From Caldifarciminota bacterium (lineage in GTDB: Bacteria; Hydrothermota; Hydrothermia; B15-G9), in assembly GCA_015489175.1 (NCBI GenBank), contig WGAI01000024.1, forward strand, positions 1 to 43,329: a stretch of 43,329 nt of DNA, read 5' to 3'. The first letter of the stretch is position 1. Every line of letters starts with the position of its first letter. Both the position numbers and the translations under genes were made by a program. Shown piece by piece: positions 3,891 through 40,677 of this stretch. The notes beneath the pieces were generated by a model. The model was given only the letters and a program-made list of their open reading frames with translations, was not told where the DNA came from and did no database searches.

Positions 3891-4765
3891 CTTTCAGGCA
3901 CCATTATTTCGACGGCTCCTGCCACTACGAACACATCAACCGGCAGGTGTCCGATTGGCTCAGAATCGATATGGTAAGGCGCATCGCCATCGATTTTTAC
4001 CGATTTCACCCTTCTGAATTCGATGTCGCTTAGCCGATGGTGTTGGGCTATCACTGTGGTGACGAAATACTTGAAAGTCGGGAAGATACCGCGCTTTTTG
4101 TAAACGACAAGGTTGAGGTATCCGTCGGTCGGAACAGCGTCAGGTGCGATCTTCCTCTTGCCGCCGTAATAGCCGCAGTTTGCCACAATAACCTGATAGC
4201 CAACAAGTTCCTCGCCGTTATCCATGACCGTTACGCTGAGAGGCGTCTGTTTGTAAGTGAAGAAAGCCTTAACCCCTGAAGCTATGTAGGCGTATTGGTT
4301 CAGGTATTTTTTTAGCTCCGGTTTATACAGGTGGACTGCCTGAGCGTCGAGCCCCGCGCCGAGCATCAACATGAATTTTCTGCCGTTGGCGTCACCGAGG
4401 TCGAACCTTTGCCTCTTGCCTTCAAACAGCACATCGACGGCGTCAATAGGGTCAAGCGGTATGCCGGCCTCAAGGGCAAAGACATTCGTTATGCCGAAAG
4501 GGATAATTCCTACAGTCTGTCCCGTGCAGCATGTGGCGTTCACAAGCTCATTGACTGTACCATCGCCGCCCATTCCAACAATTATGTCAAATCCCTCTGT
4601 CACAGCCAAACGGGCGACCTCCTCAATCTCACCAGCGCTCTCCGTATATATCCATACAAGCTCTGTATGTGGCTTTTGTTCAATCTTTTCTCGCACAGAT
4701 TTGACAACATCAGGCCATTTGATGGCCTTGTGAGAAGCTGGATTGAAGATCACAAGTATTTTCAT
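3887..4765 (-). CDS. diacylglycerol/sphingosine-kinase-type lipid kinase (DagK/YegS family)
   Basis: 292 residues, the usual length of bacterial DagK/YegS/BmrU lipid kinases, which phosphorylate diacylglycerol or related lipids at the inner membrane. Signature features are the opening MKILVIFNPAS, the nucleotide loop GMGGDGTVNE (residues 64-73), and PFGITNVFA around residues 88-96, where most members have P-x-GT-x-N-D-F. A beta-rich C-terminal half contains KIDGD near the end, also typical. The gene overlaps both neighbours by 4 nt, downstream of the response-regulator gene and upstream of the barrel gene, so expression is tied to this signalling operon. The exact substrate cannot be told from sequence. 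Confidence 0.85.
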   Translation of the reverse strand: MKILVIFNPASHKAIKWPDVVKSVREKIEQKPHTELVWIYTESAGEIEEVARLAVTEGFDIIVGMGGDGTVNELVNATCCTGQTVGIIPFGITNVFALEAGIPLDPIDAVDVLFEGKRQRFDLGDANGRKFMLMLGAGLDAQAVHLYKPELKKYLNQYAYIASGVKAFFTYKQTPLSVTVMDNGEELVGYQVIVANCGYYGGKRKIAPDAVPTDGYLNLVVYKKRGIFPTFKYFVTTVIAQHHRLSDIEFRRVKSVKIDGDAPYHIDSEPIGHLPVDVFVVAGAVEIMVPER

Positions 4766-5790
4766 CCAATTACCTCTTCCTTCAGTATGCTATTAAGCAG
4801 TAATACTTTGTTTTTAAGCACTTTATGCAGGCTCCGCTCGAAATCTTTCCATCTCGAGCGGTCAAATGAGACAACTAAATCGTAAGAGCTGTTTATAGGA
4901 TAAAATATCCCGGCAAATTTATCAGCAAGAAAATCGATGTATTCTATCTCTTCCCCTATCAATTGAAAACCTGAGTGCCAGTTGTAACTGGCGTTAGCTA
5001 TCGACTTGATATTTTCCAGCTCCTTGCCCATGACCGTTGTGTGGATAATTTCTCCCGACTTGGCGTTTTTTACTGTGAAATTTAAATTATTGCTAAACAA
5101 AATGTTAACGGATTTTAGAAGCAATCCGACTCTGCTTGAGACGATGTTTTTAATTCCCATCTCATCGATGATTTTAACCTCACAATCAGGGTTTTGCCTG
5201 ATATGTTCAAGCACATAGCCCAATCCCACATCGGAGCCATCCTCGTACATGCACCATGGATTACCACTATCAAACCTGATAGTGAAACTTTCGTTTTTGC
5301 AGAAAATTTCAATTATTCCACTAAATCCTGACCATATTTTACTGGTGATCAAAGTCTTAATGTCATGTGGTGAAAGTTTGCTGACATAAGCGCTTTCCCG
5401 GACAGCTTTAATGTGCCTGTATTTGCTTTCTATCGTTTTAAAAACATAGCCCGGATCATGCCTGAATGCTCTTTTTGTGAAATACTCGATCGCGTGATAT
5501 TTTTTAAGCCCCTGAGTTATAAATTTTATGTCCTCCACAAAACTGACGAAAAAAGGCAGGTAAGAATAACCCATAATGTGATTCCTGATGATCTCCAGTG
5601 TCTCAAATCCATTAAGGCCGGGCATTACGACATCGAGGGTGATAACATCCGGCATGAAAACGGCGAATTTCTCGATTGCTTCTTTCCCACCATAGGCATA
5701 GATTACCATCCACCCGTTTTTCTCGAAATATTCCCCAAACATCTCAAGAAAGTCGGGATCATCGTCCACACATAAAATTTTAGGTTTCAT
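4762..5790 (-). CDS. response regulator: REC domain plus PATAN/DUF4388-like C-terminal region
   Basis: 342 residues. Residues 1-120 form a receiver domain: acidic pocket D9/D10, phospho-acceptor D53 (ITLDVVMPG), S83 and K106. No DNA-binding helix-turn-helix follows. Residues about 128-220 (SGFSGIIEIFCKNESFTIRF, then FDSGNPWCMYEDGS) resemble the PATAN/DUF4388 fold, a protein-interaction module of cyanobacterial and deltaproteobacterial regulators; this assignment is by pattern only. The remaining 120 residues are unrecognised. It overlaps both neighbours by 4 nt. No histidine kinase gene is in the window, so its phosphodonor is elsewhere. Confidence 0.8.
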   Translation of the reverse strand: MKPKILCVDDDPDFLEMFGEYFEKNGWMVIYAYGGKEAIEKFAVFMPDVITLDVVMPGLNGFETLEIIRNHIMGYSYLPFFVSFVEDIKFITQGLKKYHAIEYFTKRAFRHDPGYVFKTIESKYRHIKAVRESAYVSKLSPHDIKTLITSKIWSGFSGIIEIFCKNESFTIRFDSGNPWCMYEDGSDVGLGYVLEHIRQNPDCEVKIIDEMGIKNIVSSRVGLLLKSVNILFSNNLNFTVKNAKSGEIIHTTVMGKELENIKSIANASYNWHSGFQLIGEEIEYIDFLADKFAGIFYPINSSYDLVVSFDRSRWKDFERSLHKVLKNKVLLLNSILKEEVIG

Positions 5791-28921: not shown

Positions 28922-30148
28922 TCACGACTTCAGATATTCGTCGTAGTATTTCTGCCACTTCTCCTCGAGGTTGGGATCCTGAAGCGTCTCGATGATGTAG
29001 TTGGCCATCTCCTCGGTCGTGGCGCCGTCGGGTCTCCCTGTAACGACGATCTTCTTCTCGAATTGGGTGCAGATGTCGAGCGCCATGTCCAGTTTTTTGG
29101 CTTTCTCCGGAAAGCCGATGTGTTCGAGCATCATGGCAGCGGCCTTGATTATGCTCGTTGGATCAGCGTATTTAGCCCTGCCTTCCTGAACCATTTTGTC
29201 AGCTGAGCCGTGAATGGCCTCGAACATGGCGTATTTCTTGCCTATGTTGGCGCTGCCTGCAGTGCCGACGCCACCCTGAATTTGAGCGGCCTCGTCTGTG
29301 AGGATATCACCGTAAAGATTAGGCATCACAAACACATCGAAGTCCTTACGACGGGCAGGATCGATCAGTTTGGCGGTCATGATATCGATGAACCAGTCAT
29401 CCCATTCGATCTCAGGATACTCCGAAGCTATCCGCTCGGCGATCTCAAGGAATTTGCCGTCGGTGGTCTTGACCACATTCGCCTTTGTCACCACCGTGAC
29501 CTTGCGGCGGTTGTTCTTGCGTGCGTAGTCGAAAGCGAGCCTTATGATGCGCTCTGCGCCCTGAGTGGTGATCACCTTGAAATCCATTGCGAGGTCTTCG
29601 GTAACATTTATGCCCTTGCTGCCCAGAATGTAAGCGCCTTCAGTGTTTTCCCTGAAGAACACCCAGTCGATGCCCTCCTTTGGAACCTTCACCGGGCGGA
29701 CATTTGCGAACAGGTCGAGGTAACGGCGAAGCGCCACATTCGCGGACTCTATGTTCGGCCAGGGCTCGCCTTTCTTCGGGGTCTTTGTCGGGCCCTTCAG
29801 GAGGACATGGCATTTCTTGACCTCTTCAAGAACATCGTCGGGCACAGCCTTCATTACCTGAGCGCGGCGTTCTATGGTCAGACCCTCGATGTCCCTGATC
29901 TCGATCTTGCCGTTCTTGATCTCATCGGCAAGCAGATATTCAACGACCCTGCGAGCCTCCTTCGTGATGAATGGGCCGATGCCGTCGCCTCCGACAACGC
30001 CGATGATGATCGGCTTGAGGCTCTTGTAATCGATCCACTCGGTATCCTGCTTCATGCGCTCAATGCGCTCAAGTTGCTCAAGGATAAGCTTCTCAAAATG
30101 CTCTTTTGCCCTCTCAAGGGCATCTTTGTATTGTTCTTTGTCTATCAT
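28922..30148 (-). CDS. icd: isocitrate dehydrogenase (isocitrate/isopropylmalate dehydrogenase family)
   Basis: Interconverts isocitrate and 2-oxoglutarate plus CO2; in a reductive TCA cycle it runs as a carboxylase. 408 residues. The substrate motif S135-x-N137-x-x-x-R141 and R151 (ESANVALR, FANVRP) fits isocitrate rather than isopropylmalate. The metal and nucleotide region is PNLYGDILTDEAAQIQGGVG and HGSADKM. At the cofactor-selecting site HGSADKM aligns with HGTAPKY of the E. coli NADP enzyme: Lys is kept but Tyr is Met, so cofactor preference is open. It follows aclA by 2 nt, with GGAGG 6 nt before the ATG, and ends at a strong terminator. Confidence 0.92.
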   Translation of the reverse strand: MIDKEQYKDALERAKEHFEKLILEQLERIERMKQDTEWIDYKSLKPIIIGVVGGDGIGPFITKEARRVVEYLLADEIKNGKIEIRDIEGLTIERRAQVMKAVPDDVLEEVKKCHVLLKGPTKTPKKGEPWPNIESANVALRRYLDLFANVRPVKVPKEGIDWVFFRENTEGAYILGSKGINVTEDLAMDFKVITTQGAERIIRLAFDYARKNNRRKVTVVTKANVVKTTDGKFLEIAERIASEYPEIEWDDWFIDIMTAKLIDPARRKDFDVFVMPNLYGDILTDEAAQIQGGVGTAGSANIGKKYAMFEAIHGSADKMVQEGRAKYADPTSIIKAAAMMLEHIGFPEKAKKLDMALDICTQFEKKIVVTGRPDGATTEEMANYIIETLQDPNLEEKWQKYYDEYLKS

Positions 30149-30150
30149 GA

Positions 30151-32019
30151 TTAACCTCCAAAGAATTCCTTCTCCTCATCGGGATGGATGTAAAGAATGT
30201 CATCGTAAGGATGACGATACAGCCTCGTTTTGAGGCGTTTCTGGTCGAACACATGGCCGATTATGCCGATGCTTCGACCGAGAACGAACAGGGCGTTAAG
30301 TCCGCCCATCTCGATGAACTCGTCGATCTCTTTCTCGCTGAACAAGCCTGTGGAGCGCATGAGATCGACGAAAAGGACGCCGATGCAGCCATCGACATTC
30401 AAAATCAGGTTATCGCGCTTTGCGGTCGTGAGCTTTTCGACTTCAAGTGCGAAATTCAACAGCTCGGTGTTTGGGAAGTTCTTGAAGGCAAAATCTTTGA
30501 GCAGTTCAACGCGCTTGTCAGGGTTTTTGACCGATTTCACCCTGTGCCCGATGCCGGGGATATATTTGCCCTGCCGTTTCATATCGTTGACGAACTCCTC
30601 TGCGGTCATTCCTGCATCGAAAGCGCGTTTGAATTCCTTTGCCGCATCAGCGATTGCGCCGCCGAAACGGGGGCCGATTGTCAGTAAGCCGGATGCAAGA
30701 GATGAGATCACATCCTTTCCGGCGCGCGCCGCAACGATTGCGTTGTGTGCGCCGCTGACGGCAGGCCCGTGGTCAGCGGTGATGACGATCGAGAGCTCAA
30801 TGAACCTGCGCGCATACTCCGGAAGCTCCTTTTTGAACCAAAGCAGCCCGATAACTCCGCCTATACCGTAATCTTTCTCGATGACCTCGCTTATCGGCAC
30901 GCCTGCGTAAAGCAGCTCCTCGCCACTGTCGTCTGAAATCGTGCAGATAAACTCTTTCGGCTTGCGGATGATGCCCTTTTTAAGCGCATCAGCGTAGTCC
31001 ATCGGCACTTTGGGCGGCTCGAACTCCTCGATTTCCGGGATTTCGCCTTTTGCTTTGAGATCCTCGAAGACCTCGCGGATTTTATCGCCCAGATCGTCGA
31101 ACGATTCGGGGACTATCGCGCCGGCCTCGCGTAGAGCCTGATTTTTCGCCTCGGCTGTCTCGCTTGCCGATGTGGCCATCGCACCGGCGTGGCCGAACTG
31201 GACCTCCGTCGGGAATACCTTTGCAGATGTGCCCGTGACCCATGCGACGAGTGGCTTGGTCAATTTGCCAGCTTTCAACGCCTCGACGACCTCATACTCC
31301 TTGGTGCCGCCGACCTCGCCAAGCATGACCATCATCTTGATGTCCGGGTTCGCTTCGTAGCGGAGCAGGTGGTCGAGCAGGGTCGAGCCGGGATAACGAT
31401 CGCCACCGATAGCTATGCCTTCAAAAGCCCCGTTGCTGTTCTGGTGCACGATGTTGAACATCTCGTTGAGCATGCCACCTGAGACTGTAACAAGTCCGAC
31501 CGAGCCGGGACGATACAGTTTCAGCATCGTGAGGTTTTCGATTGAGCCGCCGGTATTTCCGATGCGGAATGCGCCCGCGCGCAGGCCGCCGACGGTGGCC
31601 GGCCCGATGATCCATTTGCCAAGCTTTTTGGCGAGGGCAGCCAGTTCGCGCTCAAACCGCTCAGGAATGCCCTCAGCGATAACGGCAATCGTGCGAATCG
31701 TGTCGTAGAAAAGCGCCTCTTTCGTAACCGAATAGGCCGTGCGGAACGATGCGAAGTTGATAAGCACATCGGCATGAGGTTTCTGCTCAACGGCTTCTCT
31801 AAGCGTTGGGTAGATGGGTATCAAAATCTCACGCTTGCCGAAAAATACCTTGAGGTAGCCTTCGCGTCCGGGGGAGACGATAGCTGCAACAGATGGCTTC
31901 TCCCTGCGCGAGATGTAGTCAAAATCCAGCATGCGCTGGATCGCTTTCCTTTGCTCGTTAAAGATTATCGCCTGAGTGTCCCTGTCAAACAAAATGTAAT
32001 CTGGTTTCGAGGTTTTCAT
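30151..32019 (-). CDS. aclA: ATP-citrate lyase large (alpha) subunit
   Basis: With AclB it cleaves citrate to acetyl-CoA and oxaloacetate using ATP and CoA, the key step of the reductive TCA cycle. 622 residues, close to the roughly 610 of known two-subunit bacterial enzymes. The CoA-binding/succinyl-CoA-ligase-like half contains the phospho-His loop FGHAGAMA (His near residue 276). The C-terminal half (from about 355) is citrate-synthase-like, with TADHGPAVSGAHN, SGLLTIGPRFGGA and PGIGHRVKS. The C-terminal fusion separates it from succinyl-CoA synthetase SucD. The start overlaps the aclB stop by 4 nt (32016-32019), so the two are coupled. Confidence 0.95.
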   Translation of the reverse strand: MKTSKPDYILFDRDTQAIIFNEQRKAIQRMLDFDYISRREKPSVAAIVSPGREGYLKVFFGKREILIPIYPTLREAVEQKPHADVLINFASFRTAYSVTKEALFYDTIRTIAVIAEGIPERFERELAALAKKLGKWIIGPATVGGLRAGAFRIGNTGGSIENLTMLKLYRPGSVGLVTVSGGMLNEMFNIVHQNSNGAFEGIAIGGDRYPGSTLLDHLLRYEANPDIKMMVMLGEVGGTKEYEVVEALKAGKLTKPLVAWVTGTSAKVFPTEVQFGHAGAMATSASETAEAKNQALREAGAIVPESFDDLGDKIREVFEDLKAKGEIPEIEEFEPPKVPMDYADALKKGIIRKPKEFICTISDDSGEELLYAGVPISEVIEKDYGIGGVIGLLWFKKELPEYARRFIELSIVITADHGPAVSGAHNAIVAARAGKDVISSLASGLLTIGPRFGGAIADAAKEFKRAFDAGMTAEEFVNDMKRQGKYIPGIGHRVKSVKNPDKRVELLKDFAFKNFPNTELLNFALEVEKLTTAKRDNLILNVDGCIGVLFVDLMRSTGLFSEKEIDEFIEMGGLNALFVLGRSIGIIGHVFDQKRLKTRLYRHPYDDILYIHPDEEKEFFGG

Positions 32020-33311
32020 GCTTTTTGCTCCTGTGTTTCAGGGTTACCCTCAAGTGCCAATCTGACAACTCTGGTCATATGAAGCTCAGGGCCATAGACC
32101 TCGATCGGTATGCCTAACTCCTTTCCAAGTTCGCGCATCAATCTAAGTCCCTCTTTGTAGTTCGGGCCGCCACGACGCACATAGATCTTGACCTTGTTCT
32201 CTTTGAGCTTGTCGGCGTATTCGCGCAGTGCCATGATGATACCCTTGAAGGTTTTTGCCACATCGGTGAAGTTGGCTATTCCGCCGCCGATGATAAGGAT
32301 TTTTCCTCTCGGATCCGGTTCGCGCGTCATGAGGTCAAGGATAGTCTTCGCATACTCGTAAGTGAATTGTGTCGAAGGATTTCCGCTATACTCACCGTAA
32401 TTTGCGAGCTCTTTTGCGTATCCGAGGTCAGCTATCGTGTCGGTGTAGATCACGCTTGCGCCGCCGCCAGCGACCATGGTCCAGACACGGCCTTTGGGGT
32501 TAAGAACCGTCAGCTTGAGACTTGCGCCGGTCTTCTCATCCAGTTCCTTGATGTATTTCTCCTCAGGCGTCAGTTCTCTACCGAACGGCGCAGGAAATTC
32601 AATGTCACCCCATTTCTTTGCAGCCCAGTATTCAGCGCAATCATCCAGTCGCGCCACAAGGTCAAGCGGCACAATCTCGCCCGATTCCGTAACGGCAAAC
32701 GGATTGATCTCAAGGAATGCAAAAAATAAGTCACGATAGACTTTATAGAGTGCGCGAATGAACCGCTCGATCCTGTCAAGTTCTTCGCCCGAAAGCTGAG
32801 CCGAAAGCGGCGTCCTCAGGTCTATGTTATCGATGTCTTCGAGCACAGGGACATCGATCTGAATTACCTTGTCCCAGTTTGCCTCGATGTCAACGCCGCC
32901 CTCAGTTGAAAAGTAGATGTGATCTGCATCTCGGTCATCCTTTATCGCGACATAGTATTCTTTCTCGTGTGGGATGAACGGCTCAACGAGGAAGTGGGTC
33001 AGTTTGCCTTTCACTTTGCCGATCTGCACCTCTTTGCCCATGTGCTCGTCGATCCACTTTTTGGCCTCATCGAAAGTGGCATTTAGGAGGACCAGGCCGT
33101 GTTTTCCGCGCTTACCGAACAACTGGTCGGGCTTTACTACCAGCCTGTCTTCCTTCAGCCATTTCTCCTTCTCAGCCAGCTCGTCCAGAGAGGTCTCAGG
33201 GGTGACAAGTGCATATTTGCCATGCAGTTTGAACTCACCGTTTGAGTATTCAGGGAGCCACCGCGCAAGAATCTTCTTGGCGTGGTATTCCCTGATGCCT
33301 TTCTGAGCCAT
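32016..33311 (-). CDS. aclB: ATP-citrate lyase small (beta) subunit
   Basis: 431 residues with the ATP-grasp fold of SucC-like subunits and the sequence style of citrate lyase beta chains: an opening IREYHAKKILARWLPEY, LVVKPDQLFGKRGKHGLV for nucleotide binding (about 55-72), EINPFAV with metal ligands near 203, and a citrate-binding C-terminal domain with GGGASVIYTDTIADLG and IIGGGIANFTDVAKTF. It differs from SucC by these segments and by pairing with a 622-residue partner. GGGAG is 7 nt before the ATG, 2 nt after the aconitase stop. Confidence 0.94.
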   Translation of the reverse strand: MAQKGIREYHAKKILARWLPEYSNGEFKLHGKYALVTPETSLDELAEKEKWLKEDRLVVKPDQLFGKRGKHGLVLLNATFDEAKKWIDEHMGKEVQIGKVKGKLTHFLVEPFIPHEKEYYVAIKDDRDADHIYFSTEGGVDIEANWDKVIQIDVPVLEDIDNIDLRTPLSAQLSGEELDRIERFIRALYKVYRDLFFAFLEINPFAVTESGEIVPLDLVARLDDCAEYWAAKKWGDIEFPAPFGRELTPEEKYIKELDEKTGASLKLTVLNPKGRVWTMVAGGGASVIYTDTIADLGYAKELANYGEYSGNPSTQFTYEYAKTILDLMTREPDPRGKILIIGGGIANFTDVAKTFKGIIMALREYADKLKENKVKIYVRRGGPNYKEGLRLMRELGKELGIPIEVYGPELHMTRVVRLALEGNPETQEQKA

Positions 33312-33313
33312 GA

Positions 33314-35239
33314 TCAGTCTCCCTTTTTGGTGAATTTTTCGCGGATGTAAGCTAACTTCCCTCCCTTCCTGATAATTTCAATCTCGCGAGGACTCATCTG
33401 ATGTGTGAGCTCAATGTCAACGCCCTTGGTTTTGTTGTGGAGGATAACCTTACCCTCTTCAAGGCCTTCTGTGCTGAGTTCAAGCACATCGCCCTCGTCG
33501 ATCTTGTCGTAATCCTCAGGATTTGCAAAGAGAAGCGGAAGGATCCCGAAGTTTATCAGGTTGGCGTGATGTATCCTCGCAAATGACTTGACTATGACAG
33601 CCTTTATGCCGAGGTATTTGGGGGCAATGGCGGCATGCTCACGGCTTGACCCCTGTCCATAGTTGTCGCCGCCTATGATGAAGCCTCCGCCTTTCTCCTG
33701 AGCCTTCTTGTAGAACTTAGGATCGATGACCGAAAATGTGTATTTGCTGATCTCAGGGATGTTGCTTCTCAGAGGCAGCACTTTGGTGCCGCCGGGGAGA
33801 ATGTGGTCGGTTGTGATGTTATCTCCAACTTTGATAAGCACTTCGCCCTCAAGCTTTTCAGGGAGAGGCGGGAAATCAGGCAGCGGCTGGATGTTGGGGC
33901 CGCGGATTATCTCGACCTCGTCCGGATTTTCGGCTGGCGGCAGAATCATGGAGTCGTCGATGATGAACTTGTTCGGCAGCTCGAATTCGGGGTAATCTCC
34001 GAGCTCTCTTGGGTCGCGCAGTTCTCCGAACACAGCGGCAGCGACTGCGGTTTCCGGTGACACCAGATATACCTTTGCGCTCTTTGTGCCCGAACGGCCG
34101 AGGAAGTTGCGGTTGAAAGTTCTCACGGATATGCCGTTCGTCGGAGGAGCCTGTCCCATGCCGATACACGGCCCGCAGGCGTTTTCAAGCACACGCACGC
34201 CTGCCTGAATGATGTATTTCATCTCTCCGGTCTCAACAAGATGCAGGACGACCTGACGGGAGCCAGGAGATAGTGCCATGCTGACTTCTGGGTGAACCTT
34301 GCGGCCTTTAAGAAGGTTGGCCACTATCTTGAGGTCGCGAAGCGAGGAGTTTGTGCAACTTCCAACGATGACTTGATCAACTTTGAGGCCCTCCACCTCC
34401 TTGACAGGCACGACATTGCCGGGACTGTGCGGCAATGCGACCATTGGTTCAACTTCCGAGAGGTCAATTTCAATGACCTCATCGTATTCTGCGTCTGGGT
34501 CGGGCTCAAGCGGCACCCATTGCTCACCTCTACCCTGTGCTTCCATGAAAGCTTTTGTAACTTCGTCAGACGGGAAGATGGATGTGGTTGCACCGGTTTC
34601 GGTTCCCATGTTGGTAATGGTGGCTCTTTCGGGCACCGAGAGGGTTTTCACACCCGGCCCAACATATTCAAAAACCTTGTTGACGCCACCCTTAACTCCA
34701 ACACGACGCAGGAGTTCAAGGATGACATCCTTGGCTGAAACGAAAGGTCTGAGCTTGCCGGTCAGGTAAACCTTCACGACCTTCGGCATCTTGAGATAGA
34801 AAGGTTCACCCGCCATAGCAGCAGCGACATCAAGTCCACCAGCTCCAATGGCAAGGCTGCCGATGCCGCCAGCCGTTGGTGTGTGACTATCGCTGCCCAG
34901 CAATGTTTTTCCCGGAACGGCAAATCGCTCAAGGTGAAGCTGATGGCAGATCCCGTTGCCGGGTTTAGAGAAATAGATGCCGTATTTGGCGGCGACAGAT
35001 TGGAGATAGCGGTGGTCATCGGCGTTTCGGAAGTCTGTCTGTAGTGTGTTGTGGTCCACATAGCTTACGCTCAGCTCGGTTTGCACGCGCGGGACCCCCA
35101 TGGCTTCCAGCTCGAGGTAAGCCATTGTGCCGGTAGCGTCCTGGGTGAGGGTTTGGTCTATCTTTATGGCTATTTCCTCCCCGGGCTCAAGCTTCCCTTC
35201 GACAAGGTGAGCCCGAAGGATCTTTTGTGTAAGATTCAT
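33314..35239 (-). CDS. aconitate hydratase (short, homoaconitase-like form)
   Basis: Interconverts citrate and isocitrate through its [4Fe-4S] cluster. 641 residues, the shorter bacterial/archaeal form rather than the 890-residue AcnA. Cluster cysteines are in VGSCTNSS (near residue 293) and ENACGPCIGMGQAPP (near 353 and 356). Other markers are GSDSHTPTAGGIGSLAIGAGG and, in the swivel domain, GDNYGQGSSREHAAIAPKYLG. 3-isopropylmalate dehydratase is unlikely because both domains are fused and the neighbours are citrate enzymes. GGAGG lies 9 nt before the ATG. It is the first gene of the citrate-lyase operon. Confidence 0.93.
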   Translation of the reverse strand: MNLTQKILRAHLVEGKLEPGEEIAIKIDQTLTQDATGTMAYLELEAMGVPRVQTELSVSYVDHNTLQTDFRNADDHRYLQSVAAKYGIYFSKPGNGICHQLHLERFAVPGKTLLGSDSHTPTAGGIGSLAIGAGGLDVAAAMAGEPFYLKMPKVVKVYLTGKLRPFVSAKDVILELLRRVGVKGGVNKVFEYVGPGVKTLSVPERATITNMGTETGATTSIFPSDEVTKAFMEAQGRGEQWVPLEPDPDAEYDEVIEIDLSEVEPMVALPHSPGNVVPVKEVEGLKVDQVIVGSCTNSSLRDLKIVANLLKGRKVHPEVSMALSPGSRQVVLHLVETGEMKYIIQAGVRVLENACGPCIGMGQAPPTNGISVRTFNRNFLGRSGTKSAKVYLVSPETAVAAAVFGELRDPRELGDYPEFELPNKFIIDDSMILPPAENPDEVEIIRGPNIQPLPDFPPLPEKLEGEVLIKVGDNITTDHILPGGTKVLPLRSNIPEISKYTFSVIDPKFYKKAQEKGGGFIIGGDNYGQGSSREHAAIAPKYLGIKAVIVKSFARIHHANLINFGILPLLFANPEDYDKIDEGDVLELSTEGLEEGKVILHNKTKGVDIELTHQMSPREIEIIRKGGKLAYIREKFTKKGD

Positions 35240-36182: not shown

Positions 36183-36644
36183 TCACTCTTTAGGTTCCCA
36201 CAGATAGTCCTTAAAGTTGGAGACCTTGAGCTTTTTCCCCTTCCGAACTACGACCACCCCTTCCTTTTCAAGGCGCTCTTTCTGCAGTAATCCACCTCCG
36301 GGAAGCTTAGGGTTGAGGCTACCATCGGATTTTATAACGCGCCACCACGGAAGCGATTTACGCCCTTCCTCTTCCGCTGCTTGAGCAATCAGCTTTATGT
36401 AAATTCCTGTAACGAGGGGACATGTGGTGACCACCTGAAACTTTCTGGCAAGGTAATTCCTGATTTGAGAAACTGTCATAATCTGGCCCTTCGGTATCAA
36501 CCTTATGACCTCCTCGATTTGCTGTGGCGCTGGTATAAGCATCATACCCATGCCATACTTTCCTATCAATTTTTGGGGTATCTCAACAATCTGAGGCTCT
36601 TTACCTTCGAGTTTTTCTCTGGCTGATTTCTTTCTCCTTCCCAT
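36183..36644 (-). CDS. alkyltransferase-like (MGMT/ATL-fold) DNA-binding protein without the reactive Cys
   Basis: 153 residues from the ATG at 36644. The C-terminal half is the O6-alkylguanine-transferase DNA-binding fold: PKGQIMTVSQI, an arginine-flip-type helix, then the active-site strand, which reads PWWRVI where repair enzymes have PCHRV. Cys is Trp (as in known ATL proteins, PWHRV) and the following His is also Trp. Downstream GSLNPKLPGGG and the RLEKEGV segment match a known Cys-less subgroup. Such proteins bind alkylated DNA and flag it for nucleotide excision repair instead of repairing it directly. There is no ribosome site; TAAAAT lies 7 nt before the ATG. Confidence 0.82.
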   Translation of the reverse strand: MGRRKKSAREKLEGKEPQIVEIPQKLIGKYGMGMMLIPAPQQIEEVIRLIPKGQIMTVSQIRNYLARKFQVVTTCPLVTGIYIKLIAQAAEEEGRKSLPWWRVIKSDGSLNPKLPGGGLLQKERLEKEGVVVVRKGKKLKVSNFKDYLWEPKE

Positions 36645-36651
36645 AGTCACA

Positions 36652-36808: not shown

Positions 36809-37222
36809 ATGGTTTATAAAGAGCACAGCGGTTTGATAGTGATTAGACTTGACGATGGGGAGATCTTTCCAGATGAATTGAAATCCATATTTGACGATAT
36901 ACCATACATGGAAAGTGGAATTGTTTTGTCTGCGCTTGGTATGTTGAGCGATTTTGAGCTCGGATACTTCCGAAACGGGGAATATCACAGAGATAGATTT
37001 GATACTCCGATGGAACTGATAGCGATAAGTGGCAGCATCAGTCGCAATGCCGATCCGTGGTATCATTTTCATGCGGCTCTCGCTAATAAGGACAAATCGG
37101 TGGTTGGTGGCCATCTGTTCCAAGGCAGGGTATGGGGAACTCTGGAAATATTCTTGCTGAGCTCAGAGCTGAAACTGTATCGCGTGCCTAAAGGACACCT
37201 TAAAGTCCTTGATATAATTTGA
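36809..37222 (+). CDS. PPC-domain (DUF296) protein
   Basis: 137 residues consisting of one PPC/DUF296 domain, known from plant AT-hook proteins and widespread in bacteria and archaea as stand-alone trimeric proteins of unclear function. The typical core is ELIAISGSISRNADPWYHFH, then GGHLFQGRVWGTLEIFL; the His residues of the HFH and GGH segments are those that can bind metal in family structures. I start at the ATG at 36809, with AGGAGG 6 nt upstream; a TTG at 36782 is less likely. No AT-hook or DNA-binding tail is present. It is followed after 12 nt by the MglA-like GTPase, an unusual pairing. Confidence 0.85.
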   Translation: MVYKEHSGLIVIRLDDGEIFPDELKSIFDDIPYMESGIVLSALGMLSDFELGYFRNGEYHRDRFDTPMELIAISGSISRNADPWYHFHAALANKDKSVVGGHLFQGRVWGTLEIFLLSSELKLYRVPKGHLKVLDII

Positions 37223-37234
37223 GGAGGGGGAAAA

Positions 37235-37825
37235 TTGATAGTCAGCATAGCAGACAGGCTAATAAAGATGAAGGTTTTGTATTATGGGCCTAAAGGTTCA
37301 GGCAAAGCCACCAATCTGGCTTTTATAAGCGAAAAATACAGTGGGAAAAAGTCTGAACTCCGCGAGATTGAGACTATAGGCCACAAACATTTCTCGATAA
37401 CAATTGCCCCGATAGGGTTCGAGCGATTGCATTCATTTAACATCTCGATAGAACTTCTGACTGTGCCGGGTAAGCCAGAATACCAATCTGCCAGACGGGT
37501 ATTGCTCAGGGATACCGACGCCGTGGTTTTCGTGGCAGATTCCCAGATAGAGAAGACAAACGAGAATTTTCAGATGATAGTGGATTTGAAGAGCAACATG
37601 AAGTTTTACAACATGACCATGAGGGACATCTTTCTGGTGATGCAATATAACAAGCGCGACCTACCGGACGCAGCACCAATCCCTTACCTTCAAAGGGTTC
37701 TAAACAGCAGTCTTAACGCTCCCTATACGGAGGCCATAGCTATACAAGGCGTTGGCGTAATGGAAACACTAAACATGGTACTTGAGAACCTTATAAATAC
37801 TCTCAGAGCTAAATACGGCTCATAA
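37235..37825 (+). CDS. MglA-like small GTPase with altered P-loop
   Basis: 196 residues starting at TTG (37235), with GAGGAGGGGG just upstream; an ATG at codon 12 is the alternative. The fold is that of bacterial MglA: VLYYGPKGSGKATNL (P-loop, 18-25), TVPG instead of the usual DxxG (76-79), VVFVADSQ (97-104) and QYNKRD (137-142), where the guanine is read. The residue after the P-loop Lys, Thr in MglA (GKT) and normally needed for Mg2+, is Ala25. GTP binding or hydrolysis may be weak or altered. MglA proteins set polarity or work with Roadblock partners. The gene converges on the PATAN gene, the stops 4 nt apart. Confidence 0.82.
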   Translation: MIVSIADRLIKMKVLYYGPKGSGKATNLAFISEKYSGKKSELREIETIGHKHFSITIAPIGFERLHSFNISIELLTVPGKPEYQSARRVLLRDTDAVVFVADSQIEKTNENFQMIVDLKSNMKFYNMTMRDIFLVMQYNKRDLPDAAPIPYLQRVLNSSLNAPYTEAIAIQGVGVMETLNMVLENLINTLRAKYGS

Positions 37826-37829
37826 GGTA

Positions 37830-38615
37830 TCATATACCGTGTTTTGACAGTAGAGCGTCCATTTCTTTCTTGAATTTATCCCTTGAATCTTCGGGAACTT
37901 CGTTGGCAAGCAAGTCGATAAGCTGTCTAACCTTGTTGCGTGGGAATTCGCTTTCTTTTTCACCGAGCTGCATGATTTTCTCGCTGACAATGATGCCTGA
38001 GATCGGCCCTATGTATTCGGTAAACTTTTTGATTATCTCATCCATCACGCTTTTATCGAGCACCTCGTCAGGGGATATGGCTTTTTTAATCCTGACAAGT
38101 CCGTGAGAGATGAGGTTCTTAACGGCTTTAAAGACCTCAATCTCGCTTATCCCCAGATTGGCCGCAATATCCTTTATCCTGGATTTTCCGTTTATCTGAG
38201 CAAGAATTTTCCACTCCACTGCGCTGAGCTTTAGCTCCTCGTTAGAAGGGGTAGACTCTGTGAAAACGGGAATTGCAAACGGATCAAGTGCATCTTTTAT
38301 ATCTTGAAGTTCGTCTAACTTAACAGACAGGTCGAGGATGATGCTTTCGATATCTTCATCGATGGTTCTCTTGGGTGCTTCCTCATTCGGGTAGAACTCA
38401 AAATCGCCCTCGTTCCACAGATACACCAGAAAAAGCGCATCTTTACCCTCTACGGTTCCTGTTGTGGCATGAATTACATTCCCCTTCTCGAAATAGATCT
38501 CTCCTTTATCTTCGCCATGTCGCAGTTCCAGCCTTCCCGTTAAACGGGAATGATGGATAAGCTCCAGTATATCGATAAGCTTTATATCTGCTAAATTTCC
38601 TGTAATTACCGGCAT
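37830..38615 (-). CDS. DUF4388 (PATAN) regulator with winged-helix and C-terminal helical domain
   Basis: About 261 residues. Residues 1-100 are a PATAN/DUF4388 domain (LADIKLIDILELIHHSRLTG, then GEIYFEKGNVIHATTG and a YLWNEGDFEFYPNE end). Residues about 130-180 form a winged-helix unit (SRIKDIAANLGISEIEVFKA, VKNLISHGLVRI). The C-terminal 75 residues (EYIGPISGIIVSEKIM, FPRNKVRQLIDLLANEVPED) match a helical module often found at the end of bacterial signalling proteins. Start: ATG at 38615 with GAGG upstream; a GTG 6 nt earlier is possible. It is the last gene of an operon with the binding protein and HAMP sensor, and presumably acts as their output. Confidence 0.78.
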   Translation of the reverse strand: MPVITGNLADIKLIDILELIHHSRLTGRLELRHGEDKGEIYFEKGNVIHATTGTVEGKDALFLVYLWNEGDFEFYPNEEAPKRTIDEDIESIILDLSVKLDELQDIKDALDPFAIPVFTESTPSNEELKLSAVEWKILAQINGKSRIKDIAANLGISEIEVFKAVKNLISHGLVRIKKAISPDEVLDKSVMDEIIKKFTEYIGPISGIIVSEKIMQLGEKESEFPRNKVRQLIDLLANEVPEDSRDKFKKEMDALLSKHGI

Positions 38616-38636
38616 ACTCACCTCATTGTTTTTTAA

Positions 38637-39812
38637 TTATTTAACGATAACAGATTTACCATTTATGACACGGGCAAGATAGATCTTCCTTATCGCATCA
38701 CCTCTGGCATCAAATGTTATAGTTCCAGTAACCCCCTGATAAGGCGGAAGTCCGCGTCCAACTATCGACAGGTATCTGCGCACAGCCTCACGGGAAATAC
38801 CACGCTCCTGAAGCGCTTTTATTATCAAGTTTGCTGCGTCGTATGCAAATGCGGCCCACGGAGATGGCTCATAACCATACTTATTCTTGTAAGCCCTTAC
38901 AAATTGTTTGTAGGATATAGAATTTGGATTGAGAAACTGGGAATGATACACCCCCTCAGCGTGTTTTCCGGCAAGTTTTTTGAAGCTCTGCGGTATGCAT
39001 CCATCACCGCAAAGCTTGGTCACATTTCTGAGCCCGACTGAATCGGCTGCGGCAAACACCGCAGCTGCCGAGTGGGGGATACATGCTGCAAATATGAGGT
39101 CAGGGTTCTGGCTTTTTAGAGCGGTGAGTGTTTGGCCGAGATTTGTTACTCCTGCCATGTAAGGTATTCTTGCCAATACCTTGCCGCCACGAGCTGTAAA
39201 TGTCCTAACAAAGAAGTAGGATAACCCCCTTCCGTAGTCGTCATTGTCATAGATCACTATTGCCCTTCTTGCATGTAGGTATGTGATCGCCTGACCGGCA
39301 AGGATCCTTCCTTGCTGAGCATCGCTTGGAACAACACGGAATATGTATCTACCCGCTTGACTAATCCTTGGGCTTGTAGCACTCGGAGAAATTGCCACGA
39401 GACGATAACGGTTATACATAAGGGCACCTGCGAGAGTCGCACTGCTGTTGTAATGTCCTACAACACCCATGACTGCGGGATCTCTGCCAAACATACGTGC
39501 AACTGACAAAGCCTTGTTCCTGTTCGCACCATCATCACCTTTCACGAGCAGAATGTTGAGATTTGGTATCTCTCCCTTAAGGTTAAAGTTATCAACTGCC
39601 ATCCTAACGCCATTATATATGTGCTGTGGTTCAGGAGCCATAGCTTGTACGCTGAACGGAGCGGCCACTCCGATCTTTATCATGCGTAGCCGTCCAGTCT
39701 GAGTTGGCACTTGATTGCCCAAAACGCCAATTGGATCAGCGTTTGAAAGGGTTACAGCAAAAATTGTTACAAGCAAACTTGATATTACGGCGAAACTTAT
39801 TTTTCTTGTCAT
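38637..39812 (-). CDS. periplasmic ligand-binding protein, branched-chain amino acid (LivK) type
   Basis: 391 residues: a signal peptide (MTRKISFAVISSLLVTIFAVTLSNA) and a type I periplasmic-binding fold (Peripla_BP_6) with IKIGVAAPFS, VVGHYNSSATLAGALMYN, LVAISPSATSPRIS and AIVIYDNDDYGRG. These are the lobes and ligand loop of LivJ/LivK proteins that bind amino acids or small amides. No LivHMGF permease or ATPase gene is present here. It is instead sandwiched between a HAMP sensor and a PATAN regulator, suggesting that it reports ligand to the sensor rather than feeding a transporter. GGAGGT is 5 nt before the ATG. Confidence 0.87.
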   Translation of the reverse strand: MTRKISFAVISSLLVTIFAVTLSNADPIGVLGNQVPTQTGRLRMIKIGVAAPFSVQAMAPEPQHIYNGVRMAVDNFNLKGEIPNLNILLVKGDDGANRNKALSVARMFGRDPAVMGVVGHYNSSATLAGALMYNRYRLVAISPSATSPRISQAGRYIFRVVPSDAQQGRILAGQAITYLHARRAIVIYDNDDYGRGLSYFFVRTFTARGGKVLARIPYMAGVTNLGQTLTALKSQNPDLIFAACIPHSAAAVFAAADSVGLRNVTKLCGDGCIPQSFKKLAGKHAEGVYHSQFLNPNSISYKQFVRAYKNKYGYEPSPWAAFAYDAANLIIKALQERGISREAVRRYLSIVGRGLPPYQGVTGTITFDARGDAIRKIYLARVINGKSVIVK

Positions 39813-39835
39813 GGTTTACCTCCGTGATTAAATTT

Positions 39836-40561
39836 TTACCTACGAAGCCTTTCTATTGCAAGTTTCAAGCTTCTTGACATCCTTTCAATGGCCTGTGCGA
39901 GCTCACCAATCTCATCGTTCGATTTCACATCAATCTTAACATCAAAATCGCCCATACTCAGTTTGTTTGCAACTTCCGTCAAGTGCACTATCGGGTTGAC
40001 GATGCTGTTAGCGAATATGATTGCCATTGCAATTCCTCCAAGGAGCACGATGACGACAATTACGAACAGAGATTTCAGAATCTTGTTAACCTCTTGCTTA
40101 ACCCGTAACAGAGAAATGCCTATCCTAAATGTTCCCAGTTCGCCACCAAGTATAGGGACGCCTATATCCATGTAAGGCACTTTGTTAAAGATGATTGTTT
40201 TAATGCTCAGAGTGTCGCTCTTTACGAGGTTGGCTTTAAGAAATTTTTCTGGCAAATTTTCGACTTCAAATGTGTGTGCCAGAAGATTACCATTGTCATC
40301 TGTTACGAGGGCGTAATCGACATCACCGGCGCTTTTTATTCGATCGCATATTTCAAAAAGTGATGCGCTATCGCCGTTTATTATTGGTTCTTCTGACTCT
40401 TTAGCGGCCTGAACCGCAAAGATAATACCGCGTTTCTGCAATTCTTTCGTAAAAACGCCTCGAACAAAACTGTTTATGTATATCGCAATAATGGCGGAAA
40501 GAGCTACAATCAGGGCAACTACCATCCCAAGCACTTTCCATCTTAAGCTTACTTTTTTCAT
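39836..40561 (-). CDS. single-Cache, HAMP-ended membrane sensor without output domain
   Basis: 241 residues from the ATG at 40561 (AGGAGG 5 nt upstream; an earlier in-frame start crosses the promoter). TM1 is residues 9-29, an extracytoplasmic Cache-like domain spans 30-158 (YALVTDDNGNLLAHT, PYMDIGVPILGGELGTFRIG), TM2 is about 162-184, and HAMP 184-236 (IVNPIVHLTEVANKLSMGDF, DEIGELAQAIERM). The protein ends a few residues after HAMP: no methyl-accepting, kinase, cyclase or EAL/GGDEF domain, and the next gene follows after 23 nt. It may pass its signal by binding a cytoplasmic partner, perhaps the PATAN protein encoded by the same operon. Confidence 0.82.
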   Translation of the reverse strand: MKKVSLRWKVLGMVVALIVALSAIIAIYINSFVRGVFTKELQKRGIIFAVQAAKESEEPIINGDSASLFEICDRIKSAGDVDYALVTDDNGNLLAHTFEVENLPEKFLKANLVKSDTLSIKTIIFNKVPYMDIGVPILGGELGTFRIGISLLRVKQEVNKILKSLFVIVVIVLLGGIAMAIIFANSIVNPIVHLTEVANKLSMGDFDVKIDVKSNDEIGELAQAIERMSRSLKLAIERLRR

Positions 40562-40647: not shown

Positions 40648-40677
40648 ATTATAGATAATTTTGGACTATGATTTCAA
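40648..40677 (-). promoter_or_regulatory. distal promoter of the HAMP-binding protein-PATAN operon
   Basis: TTGAAA (40672-40677), an 18-nt spacer and a perfect TATAAT (40648-40653) on the minus strand, about 86 nt before the HAMP gene start. With the proximal promoter it would give the operon tandem starts. Confidence 0.55.

Follow-up and report, generated by a model that had tools for sequence, protein, structure and literature searches.

A cassette of five genes at positions 36,809 to 40,561 of contig WGAI01000024.1 (C24 in genome G000, a Caldifarciminota bacterium; the whole contig of 43,329 nucleotides is referred to as the window) is read here, with moderate confidence, as a kinase-free system in which a HAMP-only receptor of the type associated with STAC domains reaches its cytosolic output through proteins of the PATAN, Roadblock and MglA families. 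The receptor ends directly behind HAMP, and the concrete candidate for the component that takes over the signal is a STAC domain carried by the PATAN protein of the same operon. The genome comprises 2.06 Mb at 95.6% completeness, and its named relatives are metagenome-assembled genomes (MAGs) of 'candidate division WOR-3' and 'Candidatus Hydrothermota'. The WOR-3/Hydrothermota family of the window (f1) holds four genomes, G000 and G001 to G003, the latter three with the cassette at loci L013, L014 and L015; two distant families of the same phylum, f36 (G140, G141; locus L090) and f37 (G142-G144; loci L092-L094), were also included. The distribution data cover these three families of one phylum and come from MAGs; the assemblies are fragmented (77-410 contigs), two f1 genomes are ~95% complete, and genome-wide statements are based on family searches. 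A scan of the whole GTDB collection with the PATAN profile matched only the three f1 relatives, the patterns used being too specific for f36 and f37. The features of the cassette are as follows.

36809..37222, plus strand: PPC/PCC (DUF296) protein, a loosely attached member (PF03479, Pfam 2.6e-23)
37235..37825, plus strand: MglA-family paralogue, predicted to be hydrolysis-deficient, NKRD retained (motif comparison, tree)
37830..38615, minus strand: PATAN - winged helix - STAC protein (Pfam plus domain comparison)
37836..38054, minus strand: its predicted STAC domain, IGPIS motif between helices 1 and 2 (domain comparison, AF1502 match)
38091..38228, minus strand: its winged-helix domain (HTH_27, Pfam E 8e-5)
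38307..38603, minus strand: its PATAN (DUF4388) domain (Pfam E 9e-23)
38637..39812, minus strand: orphan LivK-type periplasmic binding protein (Peripla_BP_6, Pfam 4.6e-47)
39836..40561, minus strand: HAMP-only receptor with a first transmembrane helix, periplasmic sCache_3_2, a second transmembrane helix, HAMP and stop (Pfam)
39863-40015, minus strand: its HAMP domain (Pfam 4e-15)
40076-40450, minus strand: its sCache_3_2 domain (Pfam 5.1e-9)
40648..40677, minus strand: candidate promoter of the minus-strand operon, TTGAAA-18-TATAAT (11/12, consensus scan; count within the shuffle background)

Gene calls and Pfam place the five genes where a preliminary description, made from the DNA letters alone, had put them. 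The minus-strand order is sCache-HAMP receptor, LivK-type protein and PATAN protein, with gaps of 15-23 bases, and these three genes are read as one operon; the receptor gene has the ribosome-binding site AAGGAGG ahead of its ATG at 40561, and the PATAN gene starts with ATG at 38615 or, alternatively, with GTG at 38621. The PPC gene (ATG at 36809, AGGAGG upstream) and the GTPase gene (TTG start at 37235, preceded by GAGGAGGGG) form a plus-strand pair which converges on this operon with four bases (37826-37829) between the stops, as had been described. The order receptor-LivK-PATAN and the convergent GTPase are kept in all four f1 genomes, with protein identities to G000 of ~94-97% in G001, 65-81% in G002 and 46-65% in G003. 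The flanks of the cassette consist of aconitase/MGMT-like and M14 peptidase genes in G000, of ATPase-type genes (read from open reading frames) in G002, and of an aminotransferase gene and a citrate-synthase-like reading frame in G003. Because order and convergence persist in G001-G003 while the flanks of G002 and G003 differ, the layout is not due to chance; the earlier view of one conserved module holds, and conservation of the neighbourhood, named beforehand as the point on which that view could fail, was found. Gene decay was rejected, since dN/dS between G000 and G001 is 0.010-0.063 over all five genes (0.010 for the PATAN - winged helix - STAC gene), which shows purifying selection. The proposed operon of PPC and GTPase fared less well: the two genes adjoin in the window and in 3/4 f1 genomes overall, yet no PPC match was obtained in G003, and in the other WOR-3 families checked PPC does not stand beside a GTPase, so that PPC is treated as loosely attached.

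The receptor ends 8 residues past its HAMP match, and Pfam gave no HATPase or HisKA match in it. A search of the phylum (147 genomes) returned five further full-length HAMP-only relatives, one in each of the f36 and f37 genomes, with frames of 241-255 aa as against at least 370 aa for most other strong matches. All nine receptors, aligned at 32-37% identity, share a common end point after HAMP; the truncation is thus the true architecture, as the preliminary description had it for the window alone. Its further claim of a kinase-free system is upheld at the level of gene content, as the Pfam search of the cassette proteins gave no kinase, receiver (REC) or CheW component. The best match of the receptor in the PDB is Af1503 (1.8e-8), itself a HAMP-only protein. 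The receptor is the sole HAMP match found in G000, and likewise in G001; a partner HAMP kinase acting in trans was rejected, none having been found in either genome. Coupling to chemotaxis was rejected as well: CheW turned up in G002 and G003 but neither in G000 nor in G001, and the cassette is therefore unlikely to depend on it. The CheW pattern suggests that the chemotaxis system was lost in G000 and G001, close relatives of G002 and G003 in a single genus.

The PATAN protein had been described as a regulator with a winged helix; both domains were confirmed, and the winged helix is retained in all four f1 proteins, but a third domain had been overlooked. The C-terminal domain of the window protein (residues ~190-262), for which there is no Pfam model, matches the C-terminal domains encoded in the f36 and f37 cassettes. 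Its profile, run against 177,635 PDB sequences, found AF1502 as the best match (E 0.026); the matched stretch scored 17.8 bits compared with a maximum of 10.0 in shuffles (20,000 submitted, 18,490 of which gave scores), and hhalign on the fragment yielded P 2.8e-5. A phmmer search with one stand-alone copy gave no match in the PDB. AF1502, encoded directly after Af1503 in Archaeoglobus fulgidus, defines the STAC family of short proteins of 60-90 residues, with four helices and the motif LGPx(x)A between helices 1 and 2 (PMC4834066). In the C-terminal domains of the cassettes the motif reads IGPIS, IGPIA, IGPVA or GPLA, likewise between helices 1 and 2, and the structure model has four helices. 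The E-value alone is weak; the identity is accepted because the best match of this domain, AF1502, coincides with the best match of the receptor, Af1503, and judged by these comparisons the domain is a STAC domain. A fold match of the PATAN protein to GATOR1/KICSTOR (E 1.5e-4) was not used, the TM-score being 0.25, nor was the fold search with the PATAN domain alone, which returned nothing below E 0.047. Four PATAN-winged helix proteins of 208-216 aa in families f5 and f10 (L070-L073) are encoded directly behind an accA-like gene, a context which suggests a link to fatty-acid synthesis there; with this neighbour and no GTPases they were not counted as cassette members.

A HAMP-only receptor, a LivK-type protein and a PATAN protein occur together in nine genomes of the three families, and a predicted STAC domain is present in every one of the nine cassettes: in f1 it forms part of the PATAN protein, in f36 it is joined to a Roadblock-like domain, and in f37 it stands alone as a separate gene. 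In f36 (L090) a Roadblock gene converges on a series of genes for a PATAN-Roadblock protein (Robl_LC7 2.2e-4), the HAMP-only receptor, LivK, the Roadblock-like/STAC protein and a LivK fused to TonB_C, which in G141 is followed by a divergent, intact mglB-mglA pair 2 kb from the receptor genes. The f37 loci encode PATAN (with a weak Roadblock match), a Roadblock-like protein of 111 aa, STAC (82-84 aa), the HAMP-only receptor and LivK-TonB_C. The assignment as Roadblock-like is based on a full-length hhalign comparison (E 1.7e-5, probability 79%) together with weak Pfam matches. The case for a last step in which PATAN would hand the signal on to an MglA-type protein rests chiefly on the two STAC fusions, with PATAN in f1 and with a Roadblock-like domain in f36.

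The convergent gene was correctly assigned to the MglA family (Thermus thermophilus MglA, 5.9e-48), and its NKxD motif is kept as NKRD, but it is a second paralogue with degenerate catalytic motifs. Each f1 genome has, on a different contig, an MglA of canonical type next to MglB; in G000 this contig is C33, where MglB-MglA follow a histidine kinase with PAS and a REC-PATAN protein. A Roadblock (MglB) search gave no match on the window contig, and no mglB lies within four genes of the window GTPase, whereas in f36 mglB does lie within that distance of mglA. The four f1 paralogues form a deep clade of their own (100/99), so that a recent copy of the genome's own mglA is not supported. Canonical copies read GKT, (E/D)RT and T(V/T)PGQ. 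The paralogues read GKA, GKA, GKS and GKT at G1, K, K, K and E at position 53, H, H, H and V at position 54, and TVPGK, TVPGK, TVPSN and AAPGR in place of TVPGQ. The window protein, with GKA, K and H at positions 53 and 54, and TVPGK, consequently has neither the catalytic Arg53, nor the Mg-binding Thr54, nor the glutamine of TVPGQ. In Myxococcus xanthus MglA, Arg53 acts as the catalytic finger and Thr54 as an Mg ligand, and Q82L is hydrolysis-dead (PMC6876712), while T26/27N lowers the nucleotide affinity of Thermus MglA (PMC3000849). In view of these published effects, of the lost hydrolysis residues and of the retained NKRD, the window protein is probably a pseudoGTPase which binds nucleotide without efficient hydrolysis, not a hydrolysing switch, and output by a GTPase switch is doubtful here. 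The MglA next to the receptor genes in f36 has an intact TVPGQ, and the catalytic loss thus belongs to the family of the window. At the WOR-3 mgl loci examined (e.g. L056, L059, L064), a histidine kinase and REC-PATAN precede MglB-MglA in several families, which makes PATAN a usual partner of MglA there. At some mglA genes, e.g. those of L062, L063 and L068, a PATAN/receiver protein is present and no obvious Roadblock gene lies directly beside.

The strongest competitor, although unlikely, is that HAMP and STAC control a DNA-binding PATAN-winged helix transcription factor, and that the convergent GTPase and PPC constitute a separate unit which merely shares the neighbourhood. The HTH_27 match and its retention throughout f1, the occurrence of a winged-helix-like region after PATAN in the accA-linked proteins of other families, and the unstable membership of PPC all fit such a factor. 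It would leave unexplained, however, why the GTPase and PATAN genes converge in every f1 genome despite changed flanks, why the winged helix is replaced by Roadblock-like domains in the cassettes of f36 and f37, in f36 with mglBA alongside, and why PATAN is often found beside MglBA in the phylum.

The sensory side of the proposed kinase-free system involves a LivK-type protein with an N-terminal signal-like segment lacking a lipobox; one f36 LivK has a lipobox-like Cys. That no permease accompanies it had been stated for the window, and the claim extends to the genomes: PF02653 (LivHM permease) gave no match in the four f1 genomes with working controls, whereas the same search found 6-9 copies per relative in family f3, several next to LivKs of their own. 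Pairing with a permease was rejected on this basis; LivHMGF genes elsewhere in the genome, the other result that had been named as telling against the reading, did not turn up as a LivHM permease in any f1 genome. The cassette LivKs of f1, f36 and f37 form one clade (100/99), separate from transporter LivKs. Compared with E. coli LivK (1usg), the serine after GH..., the threonine of SATSP and the tyrosine of DYG are kept, and Glu226 is aligned with Asp. These positions are the amino-acid contact residues, and since they are mostly kept, the ligand is likely amino-acid-like. The LivKs with TonB_C beside HAMP-only receptors (L090:10695-12257 in f36; L092:6217-7656 and L093:9260-10699 in f37) represent an unusual architecture, which may connect the sensor with the outer membrane.

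STAC owes its name to a link with transport, and transport genes abound at Af1503-like loci (PMC4834066); the cassette could also regulate solute uptake, adjusting a transporter to the LivK ligand with no GTPase pathway involved, as proposed for STAC elsewhere. The transporter descent of LivK and the TonB_C fusions of f36 and f37 agree with this, but there is no permease gene in any cassette, no LivHM was found in the four f1 genomes, and the constant cytosolic partners are PATAN and Roadblock proteins rather than transporters, which makes uptake regulation quite improbable. That LivK serves ordinary transport with a permease that escaped detection in the fragmented assemblies, its neighbours being unrelated signalling debris, is highly improbable in view of the missing PF02653 in genomes of which two are ~95% complete and its abundance in f3, the separate LivK clade across three families, and the purifying selection on all genes.

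From the gene content, conservation, domain identities, motif losses and absent permeases described above we infer, for the kinase-free route, a ligand class, a series of binding steps, a direction of signalling and a target. A small periplasmic ligand, probably an amino acid, would be bound by LivK, which would dock on, or feed, the sCache domain of a dimeric receptor; the conformational change would cross the membrane to HAMP, to be read by STAC in the PATAN-winged helix-STAC protein, altering what the PATAN part binds. The PATAN partner would be the convergently encoded MglA-family protein and/or the intact MglA-MglB pair of the genome, such that PATAN, together with Roadblock in f36 and f37, relays the signal to an MglA-type protein, while the window paralogue may serve as a guanine-nucleotide-binding adaptor or a competitor of MglA, not as a timer. 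Downstream, the polarity or activity of type IV pili would be affected, possibly with a direct transcriptional output through the winged helix. The f1 genomes encode type IV pili: G001 has PilB (1.3e-223) and PilT (4.7e-143), and a syntenic operon is present in G000. PilB is a binding partner of PATAN in cyanobacteria (PMC10519157), and type IV pili are under the control of MglA in M. xanthus (PMC7519303); for these reasons pilus control is a plausible leading target.

Several points weigh against this route. The f1 GTPase lacks both MglB and its catalytic residues, and in f37 no GTPase was found in the 10-17 kb of sequence covered around the cassette. As a database match AF1502 is weak (E 0.026), and the matched stretch is short; pilBTC lies 9-20 kb from the cassette, and the two do not form a conserved unit. 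Furthermore, the winged helix could mark a plain transcriptional regulator, and the Cache domain may by itself be sufficient for sensing.

The statement in the preliminary description that no described pathway combines these families was too strong: PATAN near MglA/MglB has been reported in Groups 1 and 5 (Wuichet and Sogaard-Andersen 2014, PMC4316618), and Korycinski, Hartmann, Lupas have published the pairing of HAMP-only receptors with STAC adaptors (PMC4834066). No description of both united with a dedicated LivK and free of kinase and receiver was found in the literature searched, which included few subscription journals. With Af1503/Af1502 the cassette shares a sensor-transmembrane-HAMP protein with nothing after it, a four-helix partner with the STAC motif (in f37 a stand-alone gene, 82-84 aa) and a transport-type gene nearby; it differs in being bacterial, in the fusion of STAC to PATAN-winged helix (f1) or a Roadblock-like domain (f36), and in its fixed LivK partner, present in all cassettes, and its PATAN, Roadblock and MglA-family genes. 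The HAMP domain of Af1503 is a model of transmembrane signalling, yet the literature found on Af1503-type receptors names no receptor output; STAC packs beneath the membrane part in CbrA, and its role was called unclear in 2026 (PMC13022988).

The Group 1 MglA-MglB modules (PMC4316618) resemble the window cassette in the MglA homologue and the PATAN neighbour, but the cassette lacks MglB, has lost G1/G2/G3 residues, and takes its input from a receptor instead of a kinase/receiver. The histidine kinase - REC-PATAN - MglB - MglA locus of WOR-3 (C33; L056, L059) likewise combines PATAN with the MglA family, in the same genome; there a phosphorelay feeds an intact GTPase/GTPase-activating protein pair, in place of which the cassette has HAMP-only and STAC. 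The actinobacterial conservons (AGPS, CvnA-B-C-D; PMC13343842) recall the f36 locus, with its membrane HAMP receptor, Roadblock and Ras-like GTPase. CvnA, however, has a histidine-kinase module which the cassette receptor lacks, CvnC is replaced by PATAN/STAC, the GTPase belongs to another group and the phylum is unrelated, and the CvnB-type Roadblock is absent in f1 and present or Roadblock-like in f36 and f37.

Loci with STAC fused to PATAN or to a Roadblock-like domain suggest where the 'headless' HAMP-only receptors, a class that has puzzled for long, send their signal. In its general form, that HAMP-only receptors signal through STAC to Roadblock, PATAN and a Ras-like GTPase by a phosphorylation-free route, of which the f1 cassette with its catalytically dead MglA paralogue is a derived form, the proposal is put forward tentatively. 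If true, no kinase would stand between a bacterial receptor and a Ras-like GTPase, and the sensor would be a binding protein descended from transporters. The loci set receptor, STAC adaptor and Roadblock/PATAN/MglA side by side, so that this specific answer could be put to the test with a small number of purified proteins.

Elsewhere in the window, a response regulator (REC) whose C-terminal part is without a Pfam match is encoded at 4762-5790, away from any kinase seen in the window. At 36183-36650 lies the gene of a small protein with an alkyltransferase DNA-binding domain (Pfam 1.2e-8) and PWWRV at the position of the active-site PCHRV, which looks like an alkyltransferase-like (ATL) repair protein. 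The minus strand of 28922-35239 carries isocitrate dehydrogenase-like, succinyl-CoA-ligase/citryl-CoA-lyase-like and aconitase genes, and two of the proteins (622 aa and 431 aa) resemble ATP-citrate lyase subunits; this block is possibly one of the reductive tricarboxylic acid cycle in a WOR-3 genome.

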